Below are positions 28,959 through 42,431 of a stretch of 64,000 bases of DNA, in pieces. The position numbers were made by a program, and so were the translations under genes. The notes under the pieces are model-generated. The model did not search any database. It was given only the letters and a program-made list of their open reading frames with translations, and was not told the origin of the DNA. Numbering within the stretch: position 1 is the stretch's first letter; each line of letters begins with the position of its first letter. The stretch is from Flammulina velutipes (lineage: Eukaryota > Basidiomycota > Agaricomycetes > Agaricales > Physalacriaceae). Where the stretch lies: assembly GCA_011800155.1 (NCBI GenBank), contig CM022375.1:1488001-1552000 (forward strand). Direction: 5' to 3'.

Positions 28959-28964
28959 CTAAAG
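28959..28964. repeat. Left 6-bp target site duplication CTAAAG
   Basis: CTAAAG directly before the left terminal inverted repeat, identical to 42426-42431 after the right one. Confidence 0.85.
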
Positions 28965-28990
28965 TATGGAATACAGGACTGTCATGCTCT
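28965..28990 (+). repeat. Left terminal inverted repeat
   Basis: Twenty-six bases starting TATGGAATACAGGACTGTCA are the perfect reverse complement of 42400-42425. Just inside, CGGATCACC (about 28994-29002) also occurs near the right end in inverted orientation, and the direct repeats TAAGTACACGAGGC and TAAGTACATGAGGC follow at about 29046-29078. These could be integrase binding sites. Confidence 0.9.
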
Positions 28991-29157
28991 GCTCGGATCA
29001 CCGGCATCAGAATTTGTAAGCAGGACCCCAACACCGGGCTGGCTTAAGTACACGAGGCAGTTCCTAAGTACATGAGGCTTTTGCCTTACCTAAGTCGTAA
29101 GGTCTTAAGTTAAATGCGCCACATCAAATAAGACAGCGTGCAGTAAATTGGTCAGAA

Positions 29158-32100
29158 TTAGTCTAGGTTTGCTCTATCTCTCCAAAGTAGATGAAGATCT
29201 GGCCTCAAATGAACTGCACGGTCGTAGCGCTGAGCGGCAGTGACATTCTTTTCAGGATCTGTCTGATGATAGCCGCTACTGGCACGCTTGGCCACGGGTA
29301 CGGGTGTCCAGTTGGATGCAGGTTGCCGGATTTGAGTGGGAAGTAGACTGCTGTCAGAGGGAATATGCTGATCTATACTGTCCAAAGGATCACCATCCAG
29401 GGTAGATGGCGTCTCAGAGGAAGGGAGCATAGTACCATGTAAGTGGCGCGAGTCAAACGTCCTATGGGATATCTTAGTAGGGGGAATAGCTGCAAAAGAG
29501 GACGTACCAGAACAGGTTGCTTTCTGTAGCTATATAATATCCCCACTCAGGTTGGCAGAAAGCAAACTCGTCCAGTGCGCGTATACCCCGCCAACGAAGG
29601 GTGCAGCAGAATCCACGTGACGCATCCTTATCCCTATGTAGGGGGGCCACATAGTCACTGCAGCGGAAAACGTTGAGACCAGACATGCCGATATGGTCTG
29701 TCATTTTGACGGTATCACGGATCGTCTTCCAAAGGCCACGGAAGGCGAAAGCTGCCACACATTCTAAGAAGAAAGCGTCCTTTGTGAAAGTGGTTAATTC
29801 TTGTTGAGAGCTGTAAAAAAACTCACCTCTGCGATATCCATTAACGCATGAATGCCTTTAATGCTTTGTGCCTCCATGCGCGCGTAGTAAGAATAACCGT
29901 CCCCAAGGGCACCACCTTTGCCTTGCCGGCCTGCACCTCCTCCATACATACCTCCCTCTGAGTAATTGGTGAACTTTGATCCTCGCCGCAAAGGAGACAT
30001 GTCTTTTGGAAGTACGCGTTAATGATTCCATATATCACCATATAGAGATACTTACAGCGCATGTTTCTTTCATGATGCCTTTGTTTCTCTAGGACACGAT
30101 GACTGAATGGTTGAAAGAAAATTCCATCCATCTATGTTAGATCAGCAAAAGTCAAAAGAAGATAACACTACAGGTGACTCACTATATATTCATGTTTCCA
30201 GCTGACCAGCTTGCCCTCATCATCTAAAACTGGGACATCTATAAAGTCAGGCGCGGTTTGCTCAGAGTACGCTGGGATGTTTTCGCGATTCATATCAACG
30301 ACACAGAAGATCTGGCGGTCACAGCGAGCCATGATATCAGGGTCTGAGCGAATAGCTCTGAGTTGGAGCTCATCTGGGTCGTACACCTTTGAAGTGCCCT
30401 GGGATACCAGTCATTATTATTGTATAGAGAAATCAATTATAAGCACTTACGACCGGATTTGCTCTTCGTTTTGGGCAGCGACTAATTCCGCAGCCAGCCA
30501 TCTTGTCGGTATTGGATCGACGGGTGACATAGACGATCTGGGTGCACTGTTGCTCTGGTACCCGATTACAGCAGTGACGACAGCTTCGTATCTATTGGGA
30601 TAGATGAGTGATGATTCAGAAAGATAATTTAACAAAATAACGTTACCTGCGGATATAAAACTTCTCCCGCCTGCTCTCTCTTCAATAAATCATCCTACTC
30701 AGAATGTTAGTACTAAGTAGAGATATTACTATGAATAACACGGCGATGACTCACTTTGGAGATGATATTCCGCCGCAAAAAGGTGGCATACTCCTTCTCC
30801 ATGTCCTTAGCCTCTACAAGTCGGGCAAAAATAACCTCCAAGGTGTTGGCATGGTCGTAGTGGCCATCTCGATATTTTGCTCCTGTGTCCTTGAGTAAAT
30901 ATTGGATCATAAGTGAGTAAAAGTGTCCCCGAGTCTTGGTATCATCACCAATGGCGTCCAAGTAGTAGCCTCCCGCTTCAAGAGCGGGCCCGATCCACAA
31001 GTCATAGATGCGAAGGAAGTTCTCTAGGGAATGGAGAAAGAAGACGGTCTCTGGAATAGCAGCACGAGGAAGGAGCCACGGTGTCTCAGTCAGAGCCTTT
31101 CTAAACTGCGAGGGTTTGGAGATACGCCGCTTGGAGTCATGCTAAGAAGAAGTCTGATGAAGTTCAGATGAAACGAAGACAGATTGGCTCACCAGTTTTT
31201 TGTCGAAACGCACGGCTTTGAAGAGAAGTGTATGTGGTGTCCAGGATGAACTAAGGGAGCTCGGTGTCCATTTGAGTAGTAGAACAGTCAAACTATCTTG
31301 GAGACGCTGATGTCGAAAGACGTCTACTATGTCATTCTCATTATCGAGGCCTCTTGCTAGACCAACAACGTAGTTGGGATCGCCTACACACATCATAACG
31401 GCTGCCAAGCCTGAGTCCTTTCAAGACGTCAGGAAGTTTGGCGAAGAATAGGGCTATCCACTCACGAATACGGCGTGACGCCACTGACGGGTTTCATAAC
31501 GTTGGGCGTTGATAGATTTCATCCCTTTGAGAAGCCACCCGGTGACGCGACGTTTGGCCTGATGCAGATTTTTAGGTTTCGAGTATTTGAGTCCTTCAGC
31601 TAGATAGGACCGTCGTAATCCCTGGCAAAGTGATTCGTAATTGAGTGTCGATACCTTCTTGAACATAAATAAGTATAGATTAGCTGAAAGGTGGAGGCAC
31701 TTAAATACCTCAGTCTTGATGTACTGCCGCGCTATACTCTCCAAACCGGGCAAAACCTGGCAGAAAGCTATGGTCCATTGCACACAGATGTCGCGGTCAG
31801 CTGCTCGGTGTAGAGTTCTGAAGTCCGATACAAGCTCTTCAGGCTGTGACTCAACTCGACGACGTTTGGAAGGAGGAGATGAGGGGGAGGGGGAAAGGTG
31901 TTCAACAGGTTTGACAGGTTCGACGTATTCTTCATCTGAGTCGAAGTAATCGTTTTCAATCTCCCACTCCACGTCGCTATCATCCGTGTCATCCGTCTCT
32001 TCCGCCATTACACCCAAAGCATGCATGGGTTGGCGCTGGACGTTGCTTTGCCGTGCGCGTGATCCTTGCTATGCACTTCATCAGTCGCGTTTGAGGGGCA

Positions 32101-32523
32101 TAAGCGCGATCAGCTTACCGATAGATAGCTACGTTTCCTGTATTTCTCCAATACGGCTTGAATTTCTTCTACGGGTGTGGCCCGGAGGGATCGGCGCAGG
32201 TAAATCTCCGTGAAAAGGTCGACAGCGTCACGGAAGTAGACGCCGGTCATGTCATAGGGAAGTCCCAGCGTCTTGTAGTACCAGAAGAGAGAACTATATT
32301 GGTAGTCCAATGATTGTCCCCAGTGGTCAGACAGACTCTGACGCAGACCGTCTACAGTAGCTCTGGTGGGGGATACGGGAGGCGAGTCCAGCGCGTCCAG
32401 CGAGTGAATAAATTTGGCACAGTCCGGGGGGAGAATAGCATAGAGGGCCGGTGGAACTTCCTTGGGGATTTCAAAAGCGAAGAAAGTGGACTCTCCGTCA
32501 AGAGGGTTGTGTAACGACGAGGT
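29158..32523 (-). CDS. TET/JBP-family Fe(II)/2-oxoglutarate dioxygenase
   Basis: Predicted nuclear enzyme that oxidises 5-methylcytosine (or thymine) in DNA. About eleven exons of about 940 residues join in frame from MTSSLHNPLDGESTFF (an upstream in-frame ATG at 32551 is possible). After an acidic region near residues 140-190 comes a long helical part, then a cysteine cluster (CRHCCNRVPEQQC...CGISRC). The C-terminal catalytic domain has APLHRDKD, where H-x-D binds iron, then EWGYYIATESNLFW joined to TFDSRHLHGTM, where the distal iron-binding histidine is in HLHGT. A downstream arginine in AAQRYDRAV is a candidate 2-oxoglutarate ligand. LHGT and the YYI..NLFW strand are hallmarks of agaricomycete TET/JBP proteins. 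All key residues are present. TET/JBP genes in these fungi are known passengers of transposons, but of the KDZ group. Confidence 0.85.
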
Positions 32524-35500
32524 CATGATGGGAGGATGATAACAAGGGATCAATTAAGTTCGTATTGATGCCGCGCTGGGTCAGTCAGTCGGAAGTGAGG
32601 TACCAAAGTTCGCACGTAGCTATAGTACAGCTAACTGTAATACTCTCAGTAGTAGACATCTCATCTAAGGCGCCGACAGACGTATCTCATAGTCCGAGCG
32701 GCGTAAAGTTCTGAACTGGGTAATATCGTTAGCAGCGTATGGGGCCAAAGTTTGTCCCTACTCGCCGGATCAGCTACCCACTTATTATATCCCTCTCACT
32801 TTCCATCCCGTCTCCTATCGACAAGCACATCCCTGCGCTGCATCCCCCCTCCCCCCTAAGCGCGGCCATATCTGCCATTGTCCACCCCGCACATGCACGA
32901 CACCTATCACTCCATCCGCATTGATCCCGTGGCTTTGTCAGAACTTGGTGTCGAAGCTGCGATGTCGGACATCGTGGGCGTACAGGAGCGCGACACTGGC
33001 TTCGAGTCATGTTCGGACTTGGCGCCGATGCGAATATGAGCGCGGTCGTCGCGTACGAAGAGAGACTTTTTCAGGACAAGTAAATGGGCGGTCGAGGCCC
33101 ACTGTTGCAGCGATGGTGGACAAGTCTATGGGTGAGGCAATATCAACTATAAAACACTGTTAGCAAAGTGTACAGTGAGCTATAAAAGACTTACAAGAGA
33201 ACACATCCAGTGAGTAGTGTCGACCTAGATCGCGATGGCAAAGTAGAGGTGTCGTGAATAGAGAGTGTACGCGATCCCATACGTCGACACGAAGAGAATA
33301 ACCGGGGAACAACTGAGAACATTAGAGCCAGACAGCGGCGTGAAGGAAAAACGACGAACCTCAAATTCGGGGCGGCTAGACGGTCCATGCGAATGCAATC
33401 GAATGGGGAACTTGACATCAGCAGGAGCCAGAGTTCTGAAACTTGAATTCAGAGAACTTTGCGTCGAAGTCGAGCTTTAGAATGATGGCGCGGCGCTAGA
33501 TTGGAGTCGACGTGGCAGGAGGCAATTATGAGCGCGGCCGTCTTGGGGTCCAGTAGTGACCGCCGCGCATCCCGACCTGTTCTTTCGAAGGCTCTGCGGG
33601 ATCGCAGATGAGCCCCGGGCAGCGAGGAGACAGCTCCAACGACGTCGGACGACGAGTAATCGGTAACGTTCATCGCGGGAACGCGGTCGGTCGAGGATGT
33701 TGTAGACGATGATAACGACGCTGTCGTCGACGTGGGCGATGGTATGCCAACGCCCTTTTCAGTCGATCCTCTGGCTCCCCGTCAGTCGTTGGTGCACGTC
33801 GTGACCGATCGAGAACGCAGCATGTGTAATTTGCCGGAATGCGATGGTGCAGCCGTAAGAACCATAGTCGCATCAGTCTGACGATCCTAGGCTTGAAGCG
33901 CCTGTACCAGACCTCTCGTCGCCGCTGTCGTTGCTGCTGTCGCCAGAGAAGTTGTTGCTTGAAGAGGATGTGGAGGAAGATGAGGATAATGAATCAGTGG
34001 CCTCGCTATGCGATGAAACCACGGTATCGTCTTGGTGAAAGGGTATCTCGATGGGAGCCGGCGACGACGACGGACTGCCGGACGATTCTGCGTAGCGGTA
34101 GCGGAGACGCTATAGGCCAGACCCTAGGACTAGCAAAGCAGGCTTCAGCGTGAGGCGGGGGGCGATAGTTTGTCGGTGTGCGTGGCGTTGAGGAAGGGTC
34201 CCAGTAAAATGAGACTTGGATTTGCGAAGCGGTGCGCAGATGGTAGTCCAAAGGCTTTGTTTCATCGTCGGGCGGAGAAGTAGGTAGCGAGGGGTCAAGA
34301 ACGTCGGCGAACTGGAAGAAGAGGTTGGTGTGGGCCAACGCTGGGCGGCGACGCAAGATAGATGGAGCTAGACGGAGACGTCAGTAAAGATAAACGGAAA
34401 GACAAATAAGAAAAGCCCAGAGGCTAGATAGAAGAAATTACTGTAGAAGGAGGAGACGCGCACCTAAGTGAAGCAGAAAAGCCAGTAGACCGTTCCGCTC
34501 ATCTTTCCTTCCAATACCGCCGACCAAACCGAAGGCAGAATCTTGACGATCTTCTGAATCGCCCTAGCGAACGCCACAGCGGTGAGTCGTACGGTGAGTC
34601 GTACAGCAAGGGGAAAGAGGGAAAAAGGGATGACGGTAGGTCAATGTTGAGAGCACGAACACAGCCACAGTCACTACATAGCTTGATTTTACACTATACA
34701 ATATTAATACTTACAGATGTTCCAAGCGGTAGCGGAGCGAATAACTCTGGCGCCAATACATCAACGTTATGACTAGCAGAGATACCTATGTGTAAGAGGA
34801 GACGAGCTGAACGTCTTCCCTCGTGCCATGATTTCCAACGTCGGCCAGAATAAGCACGGCCTGATCACCAAAGTGGTGCGTTTAATGGGCTCCGTCGTCC
34901 TCTCTATCATCCCCCTTTTCTATGAAACACCAATTAGCGCCAGCGCGAATAACGACGGACGACGACGACATACCTTTCTTCCCACAAGCGTCCCCGATAT
35001 TCCTCCCATAGACTCCGGACGAAAGGTGATTGTGGTTGAACGCGGTCAACCTACTTGCTTGACTCGCTCTGCCCGTTCTGGCCAGTGAGCGGTAAGAATG
35101 TACGCATGCGACGTACTCATCCATCCAGGCGGAGGAACATCACTCGACGCCCGGTGACGACACGTGAGGGCGATGGGAAGACAAGGATGGGGTTGAGTGA
35201 AAGCGAAGGACCAGTAGGAATGGAGGGTTTCATGCGGCATCTCCTGGTCGACGACGTGGGATAAGATTGTCGATGACCGCGGGACAAGACGAGCCAGAGG
35301 ACAAGACAAGGGGAGGTGAGGAGGTTCTGTGAGGGAAGAAATGTCAAAAGAAAGTCAGACCACAAACTTGACACACGCACCATGTCGGTAGGCAGGTGTA
35401 AAGACGCTGCGATGCAGAAGACGGTGACCGTTGCGGCTCGATGACCTTCGGCGCGGACGTAAATGGGTGACATACTGCACGGCGGCGATGGCGCAGTTGA

Positions 35501-35855
35501 CGGCGCAGTTGACGGCGTTGGGTGACAAGCGTGTGGTGGCAGGACAGTAGGAGGCTCAGGGCACGGAAAGGTCAGATGGAGACGTGGGTGAAGGGATGGA
35601 TAGGAGGGAACCGCTGGACAGGCAAGGTAACGCCTACCACTCGCCCCACGCATTGGGGACGTTGGCTCAAGAAAACCGGAGAAGCTGAGATGGAGGTTTT
35701 TAAAGACGCTATAAACGATCGACGATCAGGGATTCGCCCACACGTGTGGTCATGTGACCTATCCGAGGCGCTTCCCGGCCATGCACTCAACATGAGGCCA
35801 CCAATCTCTCAACCTACGACCACCACAACCACTACAGCCCACTGTCTCTACAATC
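32524..35855. other. GC-rich central region of the transposon without a clear gene
   Basis: 3.3 kb with many short frames. On the minus strand about 33876-34356 has protein-like pieces (FFQFADVLDPSLPTSPPDDE, then in a shifted frame a serine/aspartate-rich tail SSSSTSSSSNNFSGDSSNDS), and 35117-35480 has another frame starting MSPIYVRAEG. Splicing does not connect them convincingly, so this may be a decayed or fast-evolving fifth gene. The direct repeat GTGAGTCGTACGGTGAGTCG lies near 34581-34605. Confidence 0.4.
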
Positions 35856-36702
35856 ATGCCTCCCACCAGACAAGAGAAAGGTGTTCCAACCCGCTTCCGC
35901 CCTTTCAAGGAGTGGCCTTGGCCAGGCTTCGACCGGCAGGCTAACGACAAGGCCATCGGACGCCACGCTTTTCCCGCTCTGGGAGCCAACTTCAAGAATA
36001 AGGATATTCAATACGATTGGGGTAGGGGCTCTCTTTTACCTGAATGTTTCTTATCTAACTATGTTCTATAGAAGCTCCGGTCGCTATTACAGGAGACGGT
36101 GGACGGTCTCGGAAGACCAAAGGCACCATGGACCAAGGCGACGACCAGGACCGCGTAAGTGGAAACGTCTGGGTCAAGTGGAACCAATATTGCGGTTGCT
36201 TCAACTGGTAAGAGATATTAATATTATTTGTACGGATGTTTGACGCGTGTATAGTAAACTGGTGGCAGAGGACCTTTCTCCGGAGGATGCCCGTACGATC
36301 AACGAGCATCTCAAGGCCTTGGGCTTCAAGAGCTCTCATGACCTGGCCAAAGGGGAAGTCGTTTACTTTGACGATGTCTTCGTCGGTGAGTTCTATTTCT
36401 AGAGTAATTGAAAATATTATTTAGGAGTTCTAGATACTTGGCGGCGCCGTTTCTTCAAGGAGCATCCCGAGCTCTCCATGTGGAAATCCTGTCGTATTCG
36501 CCGAGATACTGGCCGTCGCCAGTGCAACTGTCCACCCCCAGTAAGTAAGTTTTTATGTCTTGAAGATTTATTGTCTAAAGACTTATAGGTGCGCAACCAC
36601 CCGGAGCTCCCTCCTTTCAAGACCTATAAAGGAGAGGCTATTCGGCGCCCTAGGCCTGAGATTGCCTATGCAAAGTTCTACTGGATGGACCCAGAGCCTT
36701 AG
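35856..36702 (+). CDS. Transposon-encoded protein of unknown function
   Basis: Starts MPPTRQEKGVPTRFRPFKEW and ends YAKFYWMDPEP with TAG at 36700-36702; about 225 residues in five exons that join in frame. The middle part is hydrophilic with NQYCGCFNC, then a helix LSPEDARTINEHLKALGF, then VLDTWRRRFFKEHPELSMW and CRIRRDTGRRQCNCPPP. The five to six cysteines and many basic residues suggest a small DNA-binding or zinc-binding protein, but I know no matching family. It is transcribed away from the dioxygenase and towards the alpha-kinase. Its conservation as an intact gene inside the element suggests a role in transposition or its control. Confidence 0.65.
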
Positions 36703-36815
36703 AGGGTTTCGGCGTATGTTTGGTATTTAGAAAGACGGTCTTTACAATAGATTGTGTCGGTGTCTTTACAGTATTCCTCCAATAATAGTTGAATCTCTCT
36801 AGTAAATGATTTCAG

Positions 36816-39738
36816 CTACTTGGCCGCGCAAGCGGGGATGCGTAGAACAGAGTTGCGAAGCGTTCCATCCTCGGCGTAACTGAAAGGACCGAGACCTAAC
36901 CAATGGCACCAGCGATTACAAATGTGTCGGTCAGCAAAGGCATCGAACGCCTGTTCTACATTGCCTTCACCAAAGAGATGGGCGTTTCCGTCTTCACGTA
37001 GCTTTCTATAAATAGTTAGATTAACTGAAGTAGATTCCAAGAGCTAGGGAACGCACGGAGATGTCATTATCTGTGCGTCAGTCAGAAATCCTTTATACCC
37101 TTGGAAGTCAGAGACATAGACCACACGGTACAACTTCTCAAACTGTAAGTGCTGGAGAGCCACTAAAAATTCTGCAGTAGGATACTCGGGATGGTTGGGC
37201 TTGAGAAAGGGAATGGGAGTGGCGTTGTGGATATATTTGACGAAGTCGTCCTCATCTTCCATGGGAATGCGCTCCTCCAGGATGTAGGCCCGGTCGATAA
37301 CAGATTTTTTTGGACCTCGAGGACCTGCGGCAGCTTCTCGGAAAGTCATGAGAACGGCGGCTTCTACAAAGCGAAGTCTAGGAATGTCCACAGGAGGGGT
37401 TGGCCATTCTGCGTTAATTCAGAAATAGGCTTTTAGAAGAGAAATAAAATCAAGCTTACTGGGATCTTGCTGAATATCATAGATGTAGCGCTGACACATA
37501 AGTAACAGCATTGAGGCCCAGTAGTGCGTGTTAAGGTCCTTTAGAACCTTTTGCAGCTCTACGCTACCACTGTATCGGATGCGTGTCAGCTGTCTAAAAG
37601 ACATACAATTAGTAGGTACATGAGGAATAAAATAAGACGTACCCGTTGCGTGTCTTGTCCTCATAGAACTGTTTTACAACAATGGGAGAGTCCAATAGGC
37701 GGTCAAGTCCAGGATAGGGGGTAGAATCTCTAATATAGAGAGAAAGACTGCCGGAGTGTGCAGTCTTGAAAGCGCCTATTCCTAACTCTTGTCCTAATTT
37801 CATGTTGGCATGAACAGAAGCGTTAGCAGGAACAAGATAGTGCTTCGGATTGTACGACAGTAGTTCTTTCTCTCTAAGGACACGAAAGACGTCCAAGACG
37901 GGAACCATAGAGAGACTCCCGGAGAGTTGTACTTGGGGTTCTAATAAGAGAAAGATAAATAGAGAGCAGGGAAAGAGAAGAAGGAGACTGACCGTAACTT
38001 GTCATCTCTACAACTCCTCCAAGAGATACGGCCTCTACTATAGCCTGCTGGTTTAGAGCGTTCCAGGAGATAGGTGGGACAGGTGGTGTCATTGCGGAGG
38101 AGGTGCGCTTGTGCTGGCGGGGGGGAGAGGTCATAGAAGCCTGAGAAGGGTATTAATAGAAAGTAATATATACCTCAGTAGGTGAAGAACATACACTGCG
38201 CTCCCGCTTTCTCTGACTCTCTTCCTCCTCTTCATCCGTGCGTGCAGGTACGGAACCTCGGGCCTTAGGAGAATTGTGCTCAGAGCCTTCGGGATCATCG
38301 TTAAAGTCGGGGTCATCATCATACTCCGGAGCATCTCGATCAAAGGAGTTAGATCGACGAGTTGCACTACGTTTAGAAGGAGGATTTTGATCGCGCTCTT
38401 GAAGCGCTTTCTAGAAATAATATTAATAGAGGTTTCTCAAAATAGATCCAAGACGTACCAAGGTATCCTCAATCCAATCGAGGTAGTCATACCAATCCTC
38501 CCCAGGAATCTCCATTCGCAGGACAATATTAGCCTTTGGAGCCTGCCAAACGGGTTCACCACCTTTGCCTTTCATCTTATATGTCCCATAAGAGAGAAGA
38601 TAAGGTCGTTTGTCGTTATACTCCTCCACAGTAGGCCCGCCCAGATCAATACCACTACCAATCTTCTTTGAACCTTCGTTAGTAATATCCCTTAGAGTAA
38701 AATGAGAGAAATCCCATTGGAACACTCCGTCCTCTGGAGATATTCCTGACTTGATAGTATGTTTCTGAAGGAGGACTCCAGCAACATAGTCACATCGTTC
38801 CCTTACCGCAGACAGGGATGTACGAGCATCAAAGTCCTTCCAGGACTCGGAGAGTGTCTAGGCAAAGATAAGTATCAAAAGACATTATTTATGGGTGAGA
38901 ACATACCGGTATCTCCGAGAGGGCGACCTTGCCAGGTTCCGTATGGCAGAACGTCAATTTGAGTTTGACGGTTTCACCAATAAGGCGAGAGGTAGAGCTC
39001 TGATAGCGGCGAGCCTCCGACTCATAGAAAGCATGATTAGCTGAATATCCATCCTGTGTATAGCCATCAGCGCGAGGCCTAGAGAGAGGATGCGCTTTAT
39101 TTGCAGGCTTAGAAGAAGAGGAGGGACGTCCAATAATTGGACCCATAGTAGACTTTGTGGGGAGAGCCTTCACGTTAGCCTGATACTGTAAATGAGTGTC
39201 TATAAAATTTGGCTCTTCAGTAAGTGTATAGAGAGAATAACTTTATTGAATACCTTTATGAAAAGAGCGCGATGTTACCTCAGCGATAGCTCTAGGATCA
39301 GGCTTCCGGGAGACAGCAGGCATAGAGGAACCCTTGCGAGGTGGTGGTGGTGGTGGTGGCATCGTAGACGTATGAGATGATGATGCTGAGCGACCTGAGC
39401 CTCTAGCCATAGGCTGTGTATGAGGAGTGATTGACGGCGGCAGTGGTCGAGTCATAGTCTCCTGTTGCTGTCGACGAAGAGCTGTTTATTTTTATTAGTT
39501 CAAACACTGATATTAAATAAGAAGAAGAAAGCGTACTGGTCATCATAATAGTCTTAGCTTGATAATGCTCTTTGCAGGGTAAGCAGACCCGTTTCGCCTT
39601 TAGCGCATTCCCTACAACGTCAAACCTCTGACCAGGCTCGATAACAGTAGAGCAGCCCCTGCGTTCACATTGAAAGGCGACTTTCTCTGCCAAGTCGGAA
39701 GTAAAGTCAGCAGGAGTCTCAGGCTCAGAATGAGACAT
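36816..39738 (-). CDS. Alpha-type (eEF2K/MHCK-like) protein kinase with N-terminal zinc motif
   Basis: Starts MSHSEPETPADFTSDLAEK. The N-terminus has a zinc-ribbon-like pattern, C-x4-C followed by C-x2-C (QCERRGC ... RVCLPC). A low-complexity linker follows, rich in proline, serine and charged residues. The C-terminal alpha-kinase domain shows GIGAFKTAHSGSL as nucleotide-binding glycine loop, VVKQFYEDKTRN with a candidate catalytic lysine, AYILEERI, FVKYIHN, then KGFLTDAQIMTSP joined by a GTGCGT-AG intron to LFGEGNVEQAFDAF and RHICNRWCHWLGL, the H-x-C-x3-C zinc site that marks this fold. Stop at 36816-36818. About ten introns. The kinase looks catalytically complete. It shares an intergenic promoter region with the divergent integrase. 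Confidence 0.8.
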
Positions 39739-40349
39739 AGTGAAAGTAAGAACGTAAGAAGAGTGATAATGGGGGAGGAGGAAGATGGGGCAGCTAAACA
39801 ATCTTGAAGCTATCCTTCTTTTAAACCTATATTGGACTTAGAAAAATTGAGGATATTGCTCTAGCGATTACTGGTGCGGAGCGATGCGGGTCTAAATTTT
39901 CTGGCAAGGCAAAACATGAGGAGCCAAGATTTAATTTTGAAGGACTCGCTTCAGGACTTTCCTTGAAGACAGGTCAGTCTAGCCTTTACATGCGGTATGA
40001 ACGTGTATGCTCAGTCAGCTGAATGAAATAGGCGGGATCCTCATACCTCATGGTAGGTACAACACGTGTATGTAGCACTTTCTACCACTGTCTCAAGTCG
40101 AATTGAAGATACGATATTCACCGACTGTCCTTAGTAGCCAATGAGATAGTATTGCCTAGCCCTTTTTTCCCTGACTAGCCACAACACGACTCACTTTGGA
40201 ATAGCTTCCGCGGCTATTCTTGTCAGGTCGATTACACTACTTCTCTTTTCAATACTGGTATAAAAGAATAGGATACACAAGTCAAAAACATATCTCTGCC
40301 TATCCCCAGTGTCTGTCCTCTTCTTACTCTCAGTTCATCTCTGTCAGTG
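39739..40349. promoter_or_regulatory. Divergent promoter region of kinase and integrase
   Basis: 611 bp between the two start codons with no coding signal. TATAAAAG at 40259-40266 lies about 85 nt before the integrase start and is a probable TATA box. Confidence 0.55.
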
Positions 40350-42294
40350 ATGGCAGGTGGCGCATGGAAGCCTAATCGTAAGTGAACTTGCTACTACTTG
40401 CATGCACTTGATGCTGAATAAAGCTTTGATTAGCACCCTTAGCTCTTATTGAGGGTCCTCTAAGAGCTCTTTGGGCCCGAAAGCATCTAACAGAGGATGA
40501 GATATTAGAGCGCCTCCGCACGGAATTTGATACTACCAAGTATGGTCTTGGGTAAGATTGTCTTTCTTGTGAGTGTGCGACTATCCTTGACTGATTATTA
40601 TCTCTTCTTAATAGGAAAACTAAGTTCCGCAAAATACGAGCAGATCTTGGATTGCTGGGAACGCGACAGCAAGGTTAGAGCTTTGACTTTCTATTCTGAA
40701 CGTCTATTAATGACAGATTTAGCTCACAATGTGAACACTATTCGGGACGACATGGTAACCCTTCGGCAACAGTACCCTAATGCTGGTATGAAGGAAATAG
40801 TTACTTTACTCTTTACAGAGTGCGACAAGAAAGTCTCCCGGTATGTGCTGTGTTAGCCTGTATATTTTCATTTTCTAACTATTTTTAGTGCTATTGTGGC
40901 TGCCTATATGCATCGATATGAGGCAGACCTTTTGCGCCAGCGTAGAAGGGGCCGTCTGCGCCGCAAACGCTTCTGGGCAGCGGGATGTAACGACATATGG
41001 ACCTTGGATCAGCACGACAAATGGAAGAGGTTTGGTCTAGGTCTTCATGTTGCACTGGACCCCTTTACAGGACAAGTCAAATGGCTGAAGATCTGGTGGG
41101 GTAACCGAGATCCCCGTTTAATCCTAGGCTATTACCTTGAGACAGTTAGGAACCTGCGATGTAAGTTCTACTTATCTGCAACGGTTATCAACTAATCCTA
41201 ACAATCCTTAAAGATATTCCTTTATGTAGCCAGAGCGATCCCGGATCGGAGAACTGGTGTGTGGCCAAGGGTCATACCTATCTGCGCCAATGTCTTGATC
41301 CCACCCTGGTTGGCACTCTTCAACACAGATGGATGCGGGAAAAGAAAAACATTCCTCCTGAAATATTTTGGTCTAATATGCGTCGCCGCTTTACACCAGG
41401 ATTTCAGGATATTTTAGAGGCTCCAGAGCGCATCCCGGCCATCCGATATCGGTCTACACATCGAATCCAGTAGTAAGTCTTTAGTGTTCTTCAAAAGAAC
41501 CTTGAACTAATACTACGGCATAGTAATGTTTTCAAGTACCTCTTCATCCCTTGGCTTCAACTCGAGCTGGATTTGTTCAAGGACAGATACAACACTACCA
41601 TGAAGCGCCACCAAAAGGATAAGATTCTCCCACAAGGAGGTTGCCCAGACGATATAGAGCAGTACCCTGAGAAGTATGGCTGCATGAACTTCAAGGTGAG
41701 AATAGCTCGTATGGATTCACTAGATTACTGACTAAATTGACATGAGTATAGGTTAATATTGATCCGAAGTCGCAGTATCTCAAAGACCTGGAGACCTTAT
41801 ACGCTCCGCCAGACCACCCTACTTTCGAATTATTGCCACCCGCATTTCATACCCTTCTAGATCAAATCTATGAGGAGTTAGGAAAGCCACAAGTCCGCCG
41901 GGACAATATATGGAATATCTATATGGCTCTCTTAGAGCGAGTAGAGGCCTTGCAGAGGACGGACAGATTGACTATTGATCAGATGGGTCTAGCTGCCTAC
42001 AACGAGGATATCCATGAGGATGACGAACACATGGTGGCCCTTCTGTCTGCCGAGATCCAGGAACTCCAACCTTTGCAAGAGGTCGTGGAGGATGGCTACG
42101 CCGGCGGGGTAAATGGTGGCTTGGGGCCAGGTCGTGGTGACTCAAACGTGGGTGAATATCTTATGGGCGATACAGCTGCTATTCAGGAGGAACACTTTCA
42201 TGACCTGGACATTGATTACTTTACGTCAGACGATGAGGATGATGAGGAGGCTCAGGTGGCGCGGACACTGATGACCTATATCGATGACGAATGA
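40350..42294 (+). CDS. DDE integrase/transposase (IS3EU-like, integrase core fold)
   Basis: Starts MAGGAWKPNPPLALIEGPLR with a short first exon (40350-40377), then in-frame exons from 40434. The N-terminal part is helical and probably binds the ends. The catalytic core has TLDQHDKWKRFGLGLHVALD (first aspartate in TLDQ), then SQSDPGSENW (second aspartate, GSEN resembling the GTEN of eukaryotic integrase cores) and NIPPEIFWSNMRRRF with the likely glutamate about 41 residues later. The C-terminal third has PPAFHTLLDQIYEEL and ends in a very acidic tail (YFTSDDEDDEEAQ). Stop at 42292-42294, only 130 bp from the right end. The order of D, D and E and the family resemblance to rve-type cores support a cut-and-paste integrase. 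All catalytic positions are present. Confidence 0.85.
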
Positions 42295-42399
42295 ATATTC
42301 TTTTATTTTTCTCTTTACTAAATTATTTAGATAATTGACCAATATAGTAGTGGTGTTGGAGGTCCTTGGCTTACTAAGGGTGATCCGCATCACCGGCAA

Positions 42400-42425
42400 A
42401 GAGCATGACAGTCCTGTATTCCATA
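42400..42425 (-). repeat. Right terminal inverted repeat
   Basis: Perfect 26-bp reverse complement of 28965-28990, ending CCATA next to the target duplication. Confidence 0.9.
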
Positions 42426-42431
42426 CTAAAG
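42426..42431. repeat. Right 6-bp target site duplication CTAAAG
   Basis: Second copy of the 6-bp duplication that flanks the element. Confidence 0.85.

Follow-up and report, generated by a model that had tools for sequence, protein, structure and literature searches.

The question raised by this locus is whether a gene cluster of the mushroom Flammulina velutipes is a complete IS3EU transposon, and whether one of its genes encodes an oxygenase of the TET/JBP type. The window, i.e. the whole stretch of DNA analysed, comprised 64,000 nucleotides (assembly GCA_011800155.1, contig CM022375.1, positions 1,488,001 to 1,552,000 of the forward strand), and coordinates given without a contig refer to it. 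The element in the window is termed the C8 copy, and C numbers denote contigs of the same 38-Mb genome. It is best explained, with a probability of about 0.6, as a complete agaricomycete IS3EU transposon that is moved by its integrase and carries an alpha-kinase partner together with a gene (gene 1) for a divergent TET-like dioxygenase directed against silencing. Gene structures are our own splice models, predicted from the genomic sequence. The element is composed as follows, from left to right.

28959..28964, no strand: left target site duplication (TSD), CTAAAG, a direct 6-bp duplication
28965..28990, plus strand: left terminal inverted repeat (TIR), 26 bp, perfect (end comparison and genome-wide end search)
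29158..32526, minus strand: gene 1, 934 amino acids, 12 exons, candidate Fe(II)/2-oxoglutarate dioxygenase (motif only)
35856..36702, plus strand: small gene, 220 amino acids, 5 exons (splice model, mapped on the copy on contig C3)
36816..39738, minus strand: alpha-kinase gene, 806 amino acids, 10 exons (PF02816)
40350..42294, plus strand: IS3EU integrase/transposase gene, 524 amino acids, 8 exons (PF24764, rva_4)
42400..42425, minus strand: right TIR, 26 bp, perfect (end comparison and genome-wide end search)
42426..42431, no strand: right TSD, CTAAAG, a direct 6-bp duplication

The element spans positions 28965-42425 (13,461 bp). The perfect 26-bp inverted repeats and the identical 6-bp CTAAAG duplications described in the earlier note were exact to the base; the repeat reads TATGGAATACAGGACTGTCATGCTCT, and imperfect likeness extends to about 70 bp. 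The termini, TATGG..CCATA, agree with the TA..TA criterion for IS3EU (PMC10045372) and with the TAYGG..CCRTA ends of rust families (PMC12730594). A whole-genome search with the 25-bp end, allowing up to 3 mismatches, returned 15 sites, 12 of which formed facing pairs, and the reversed-pattern control returned 0; a chance origin of the ends is therefore excluded.

A second full-size copy was located at C3:175677-189300 (TSD TCATCT) and a third at C5:2866182-2878908 (TSD ACATTT), the right end of the latter being located separately from its left end. Two short copies, of 2,717 bp (TSD CGAAAT) and 5,100 bp (TSD AAATGG), lie on C10. A 6-bp TSD flanked five of the seven paired copies (C8, C3, C5 and the two on C10); the end pairs on C15 and C22 sit inside inverted repeats and showed no direct TSD there. 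Single, unpaired ends were found on C9 and C21. DNA identity between the C8 and C3 copies was 80-83%, the C5 copy being far more diverged, and in a comparison that included 0.5-1 kb of flank on each side the C8-C3 match stopped at the element ends. The search for other copies proposed in the earlier note yielded the same ends, boundaries and genes at C3 and C5, with 6-bp duplications. Shorter copies with the same ends and without the genes, which that note would have counted against the element if their boundaries lay elsewhere, do exist (C10, 2.7 kb), but they are ordinary for DNA transposons, and the full copies keep both boundaries and genes.

Some of the sites with such ends hold further sequence. 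The copy at C10:1669068-1674167 (TSD AAATGG) contains reverse transcriptase, RNase H and integrase-like frames inside the IS3EU ends, which we take to be a Ty3/Gypsy-like retroelement. At C15:25967-44815 and C22:17392-35615 there are near-identical inverted repeats, both arms of which carry the C5-type IS3EU end and share the flanking sequence; C21:133277 marks one arm of a repeat of this type, and contig C21 ends soon afterwards. These structures are possible palindromes or assembly artefacts on small contigs and were set aside.

By its proteins, the element belongs to IS3EU and encodes a DDE (Asp-Asp-Glu) integrase and an alpha-kinase. The integrase matched PF24764 (rva_4) at 34.1 bits (cut-off 26). 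D150, D209 and E250 were invariant in all 13 aligned proteins (the window protein and 12 of the 120 listed among 183 database relatives) and are in our reading the putative DDE triad. Among the 120 listed, the best relative was that of Paramarasmius palmivorus (55%), and the named relatives are presumably all Agaricomycotina, nearly all of them Agaricomycetes. Judged from these relatives, the host would most likely be an agaricomycete close to Marasmiaceae. The kinase matched PF02816 (48 bits, cut-off 21.3, E 2.1e-12) and, weakly, the eEF2 kinase in the PDB (E 0.0029). Kinase (minus strand) and integrase (plus strand) are oppositely oriented, as in published TET-bearing (TET+) IS3EU elements. 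Pfam gave no match to a KDZ (Kyakuja, Dileera, Zisupton) transposase in any of the four element proteins.

The four multi-exon genes that the earlier note had described as lacking stops were recovered as open spliced models in the C8 copy; when mapped to the C3 copy, each keeps its number of exons and is free of stops. Gene order and orientation are identical in C8, C3 and C5. Amino-acid identity between C8 and C3 was 85.5% for gene 1, 74.5% for the small gene, 88.5% for the kinase and 96.9% for the integrase; the values for the C5 copy were 70%, 47%, 40% and 58%, respectively. The ratio of nonsynonymous to synonymous substitution rates (dN/dS) between C8 and C3 was, in the same order, 0.09, 0.087, 0.069 and 0.056 by the NG86 method and 0.126, 0.135, 0.09 and 0.102 by YN00; it was scored for this pair only, synonymous sites being saturated or stops being present between C8 and C5. 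The integrase gene, the ends and the 6-bp duplications form one mobile unit, which the three accessory genes accompany at three sites, and these genes appear to be under constraint, judging from the two closest copies, C8 and C3. Synonymous divergence (dS) was lowest for the integrase (0.24) and highest for the small gene (1.75), which suggests that the C8 and C3 copies are mosaics. Identity with the C3 copy is 94-99% in the 3' half of the integrase (41335-42425) and 94% in one 250-bp block elsewhere, most of the other shared element being 68-92% identical; the 3' half of the integrase looks as if it had recently been exchanged between the two copies. A stop in the C5 kinase alignment precedes the likely start. 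In the C5 integrase model, the two final exons extend beyond the right end of the element and were rejected as alignment artefacts.

Seven rust species and Tuber indicum are reported to harbour TET+ IS3EU elements with an alpha-kinase, and 11 transposon lineages to carry TET genes (Kojima 2025, PMC12730594; December 2025). According to that paper, the rust elements have 6-bp TSDs, TAYGG..CCRTA ends and TIRs over 30 bp, and every TET+ IS3EU family has its TET gene between transposase and alpha-kinase. The present element shares the IS3EU integrase, the type of ends, the 6-bp TSD, the alpha-kinase opposite the transposase and an oxygenase gene (a candidate only). It may differ in its TIR (26 bp perfect, imperfect to about 70 bp), and it differs in its agaricomycete host and in its gene order: the kinase adjoins the integrase, and gene 1 stands at the far end in C8, C3 and C5, with the small gene between. 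The same paper gives the TET carriers of Agaricomycotina as Kyakuja, Zisupton, EnSpm, Plavaka and Helitron2 only. KDZ transposons such as Kyakuja and Zisupton are likewise mushroom DNA transposons with oxygenase cargo (a candidate here), but their transposase is unrelated, and the TSD here is 6 bp long. A literature search for IS3EU together with an alpha-kinase gave only PMC12730594, most subscription papers being outside its reach. IS3EU as such is not new in agaricomycetes, judging from titles on Ganoderma and Phlebopus; nor are kinase-carrying TET+ IS3EU elements, already published for rusts and a truffle (PMC12730594). Convergent capture of demethylation by a second transposon class, put forward as a novelty in the earlier note, is likewise a published theme there. 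New here are the agaricomycete host, the different gene order and the presence of host-genome fragments in the C8 and C3 spacers.

The assignment of gene 1 to the TET/JBP enzymes is tentative. At pattern level only, it carries a putative iron motif, H791xD793 ... H842, and a Cys-rich stretch lies at about residues 544-579. The HxDxD and the distal His are kept in all seven gene-1 family sequences, and the HxD-to-distal-His spacing of 51 residues compares with 53 in three Tet_JBP-like proteins of the same genome. At C8:171735-175022 lies a decayed gene-1 relative, which is 40% identical and has six stops when aligned. In the mechanism proposed, the integrase would move the element by DDE chemistry, and the alpha-kinase, probably an old IS3EU partner, would modify transposition or host proteins. 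Gene 1 would act as a divergent Fe(II)/2-oxoglutarate dioxygenase comparable to the TET enzymes carried by transposons; by oxidising methylated cytosine in the element's own DNA, it would let the element escape silencing. The small Cys-containing protein is perhaps its partner.

CpG decay can be compared with that in a second IS3EU family (C9/C3b), which was found from integrase and kinase matches at C9 and C3:142-147 kb. Its two copies show 97.8% identity over 3.2 kb, as far as CCATA, and differ beyond it. Identical ends form pairs at C3:132265-147728 and at C9:1942985-1984262. The ends of the C9 pair are 41 kb apart, compared with 15.5 kb in its near-identical C3 relative, possibly reflecting a nested insertion or a large cargo. 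These elements, much of both being unread, gave no match to gene 1, a gene-1 relative, the small gene or PF12851. Between the C9/C3b copies, 25 transitions were counted at CpG and 21 at other C/G positions (odds ratio 5.4, p 7e-8). For C8/C3, the odds ratio was 0.89 and 1.28 overall. The two least diverged segments gave 1.58 and 2.11, with heterogeneity p values of 0.005 and 0.034. No CpG excess appeared in the C15/C21 and C10/C15 comparisons (2 CpG transitions each). Observed/expected CpG was lowest (0.78) in the 3.2-kb stretch of C9/C3b, compared with 0.88-0.90 in C8, C3 and C5 and 0.97-0.99 in the window flanks. Within the limits set by saturation, coding constraint and single pairs, this contrast in CpG decay is tentatively compatible with a demethylation role of gene 1.

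Several results speak against a TET-like gene 1 that protects a working element. Gene 1 gave no match to Pfam Tet_JBP (PF12851), with the whole protein at E <= 1 or with the core at E <= 10; its best Pfam match was a sub-threshold TPR_9 (E 0.2), and an in-genome protein scanned alongside matched PF12851 at 27.7 bits (cut-off 34.9). PDB profile searches gave chance matches only. The protein database yielded no homologue, either with residues 420-880 alone or with a three-copy alignment, and distant relatives may be missed since this search needs shared 5-residue words. None of 34 gene-1 pattern matches in viral contigs was confirmed as a relative. Alignment to the three in-genome Tet_JBP-like proteins gave a probability of 0.1% in hhalign and profile scores not above those of shuffles; these tests have low power, the profiles being shallow and the three proteins matching PF12851 at only 23.4-28.3 bits, below the cut-off of 34.9, so that the comparison is weak in both directions. 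The Arg found in those three proteins at +11 after the second His is absent from the gene-1 sequences. The C5 integrase carries one in-frame stop. A mild CpG excess is also present in C8/C3 (right side, p 0.018; right coding sequence, 1.55, p 3.5e-4; right 1.46 kb, 2.11, p 0.024), and the contrast between the families consists of one copy pair per side, of unlike divergence (2% vs 16-18%). The predicted fold of one contiguous gene-1 exon alone was uninformative (pLDDT 52).

Because the sequence tests are negative and motif and precedent are positive, gene 1 is labelled TET/JBP-like by motif, and not as an established member. Of the IS3EU-like element with a TET/JBP dioxygenase, an alpha-kinase and a novel protein described in the earlier note, IS3EU, kinase (by Pfam) and small gene were upheld, and the TET/JBP assignment was reduced to a motif. 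The strongest alternative, about half as probable in our judgement as the reading preferred here, accepts the same IS3EU element and makes gene 1 an unrelated protein, whose HxDxD...H would bind metal for a nuclease, structural or non-DNA hydroxylase purpose. It accounts well for the negative Pfam, database, PDB, hhalign and profile tests and for the missing Arg, but less well for the HxD-51-H spacing, near the 53 of the in-genome proteins, and for the published pairing of TET/JBP with an alpha-kinase as the cargo of TET+ IS3EU. Moreover, the PE-type TETs of PMC12730594 were likewise barely visible to sequence comparison (HHpred E 1.4 and 19) and were recognised with predicted structures. Their hallmark there is HxE, which is absent from gene 1: all seven family sequences have HxD, and gene 1 differs from the PE type also in having no Tet_JBP match.

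The small gene, which had no Pfam match, points to a possible link with KDZ elements. Four of its five relatives outside known IS3EU copies have a KDZ transposase match no more than 8 kb away (3.6% of the genome expected, p 8e-6), as do two of ten gene-1 relatives (p 0.05); at 4.5 kb, proximity was not significant for either the small gene (1/5, p 0.10) or gene 1 (1/10, p 0.20). Sharing of the two genes with KDZ elements is a tentative lead, since the 8-kb cut-off was picked after the distances were known, transposons cluster, the KDZ positions are those among the matches listed, and the 4.5-kb result was null. One gene-1 relative, at C6:2055724-2060820, lies about 4 kb from a same-strand KDZ transposase match. 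KDZ loci that bear on a possible association with the small gene are C1:1629-1638 kb, C1:3700-3709 kb, C3:3062-3071 kb and C5:2345-2350 kb. A bolder proposal appears rather doubtful: gene 1 would be the founder of one more dioxygenase family, of HxD type and distinct from the PU, AG and PE types, with no relative detected outside this genome, and would have been taken up, like its small partner gene, by both IS3EU and KDZ elements of one mushroom; its carriers would escape CpG methylation while IS3EU cousins in the same genome that lack it decay at CpG.

Between gene 1 and the small gene, a 3.3-kb spacer is mostly unshared between C8 and C3. In C8 it contains the following.

32527..35855, no strand: variable GC-rich spacer with host-genome fragments (gene models and genome comparison)
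33605..33741, no strand: fragment 91% like C3:1841823-1841954 (genome comparison)
33746..33913, no strand: fragment 94-95% like C1:2382200-2382455 (genome comparison)
33914..34071, no strand: fragment 85% like C9:358572-358741 (genome comparison)
34074..34323, no strand: fragment 87% like C2:2376187-2376432 (genome comparison)

In all, C8 spacer fragments (32940-35152) are 67-95% identical to five other places, two on C1 and one each on C2, C3 and C9; four of the fragments abut with gaps of 0 to 4 bp, and a 43-bp match to C7 also lies within the spacer. The C2-derived fragment shows frame-breaking gaps. The C1-derived fragment exactly lacks an intron-like stretch of its source, 50 bp long and of the form GT..AG, hinting at capture via an RNA copy; the last 16 bases of this comparison were read directly from the sequences. 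Intron loss as an explanation of the whole fragment was rejected, one of its two gaps being intron-like and the other a plain deletion of 105 bp. Both of the fragment sources examined contain long open frames. The spacer of the C3 copy (C3:179350-182500; 3,151 bases searched) matches C13 and C6 at 90-91%, and because it holds host fragments different from those in C8, the spacer may be a site of repeated capture. Pack-TYPE plant transposons likewise capture host sequence between TIRs; they are described in PMC8903248 as non-autonomous, whereas the present element has its own integrase, and one of its fragments, exactly lacking an intron-like stretch, hints at an RNA source.

Such capture could suggest that the accessory genes, too, are chance passengers that serve neither transposition nor silencing, like the fragments with their 67-95% likeness to the sources and the frame-breaking gaps in one of them (C2). 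We consider this improbable: the same three genes are kept at three insertions and are open in C8 and C3 with NG86 dN/dS <0.1, whereas little of the intervening spacer is conserved. A chance cluster of neighbouring host genes between unrelated repeats, with no transposon, is refuted by the perfect TIR with TSD and by the same unit at three sites.

The preferred reading of the locus, an IS3EU transposon with its kinase partner and a divergent TET-like dioxygenase, widens the range of kinase-carrying IS3EU elements that are probably TET-like to include mushrooms, in which the gene order and possibly the type of oxygenase are new. IS3EU families with and without a detected gene 1 in one genome would provide a natural experiment on the protection from methylation by a transposon-borne oxygenase.

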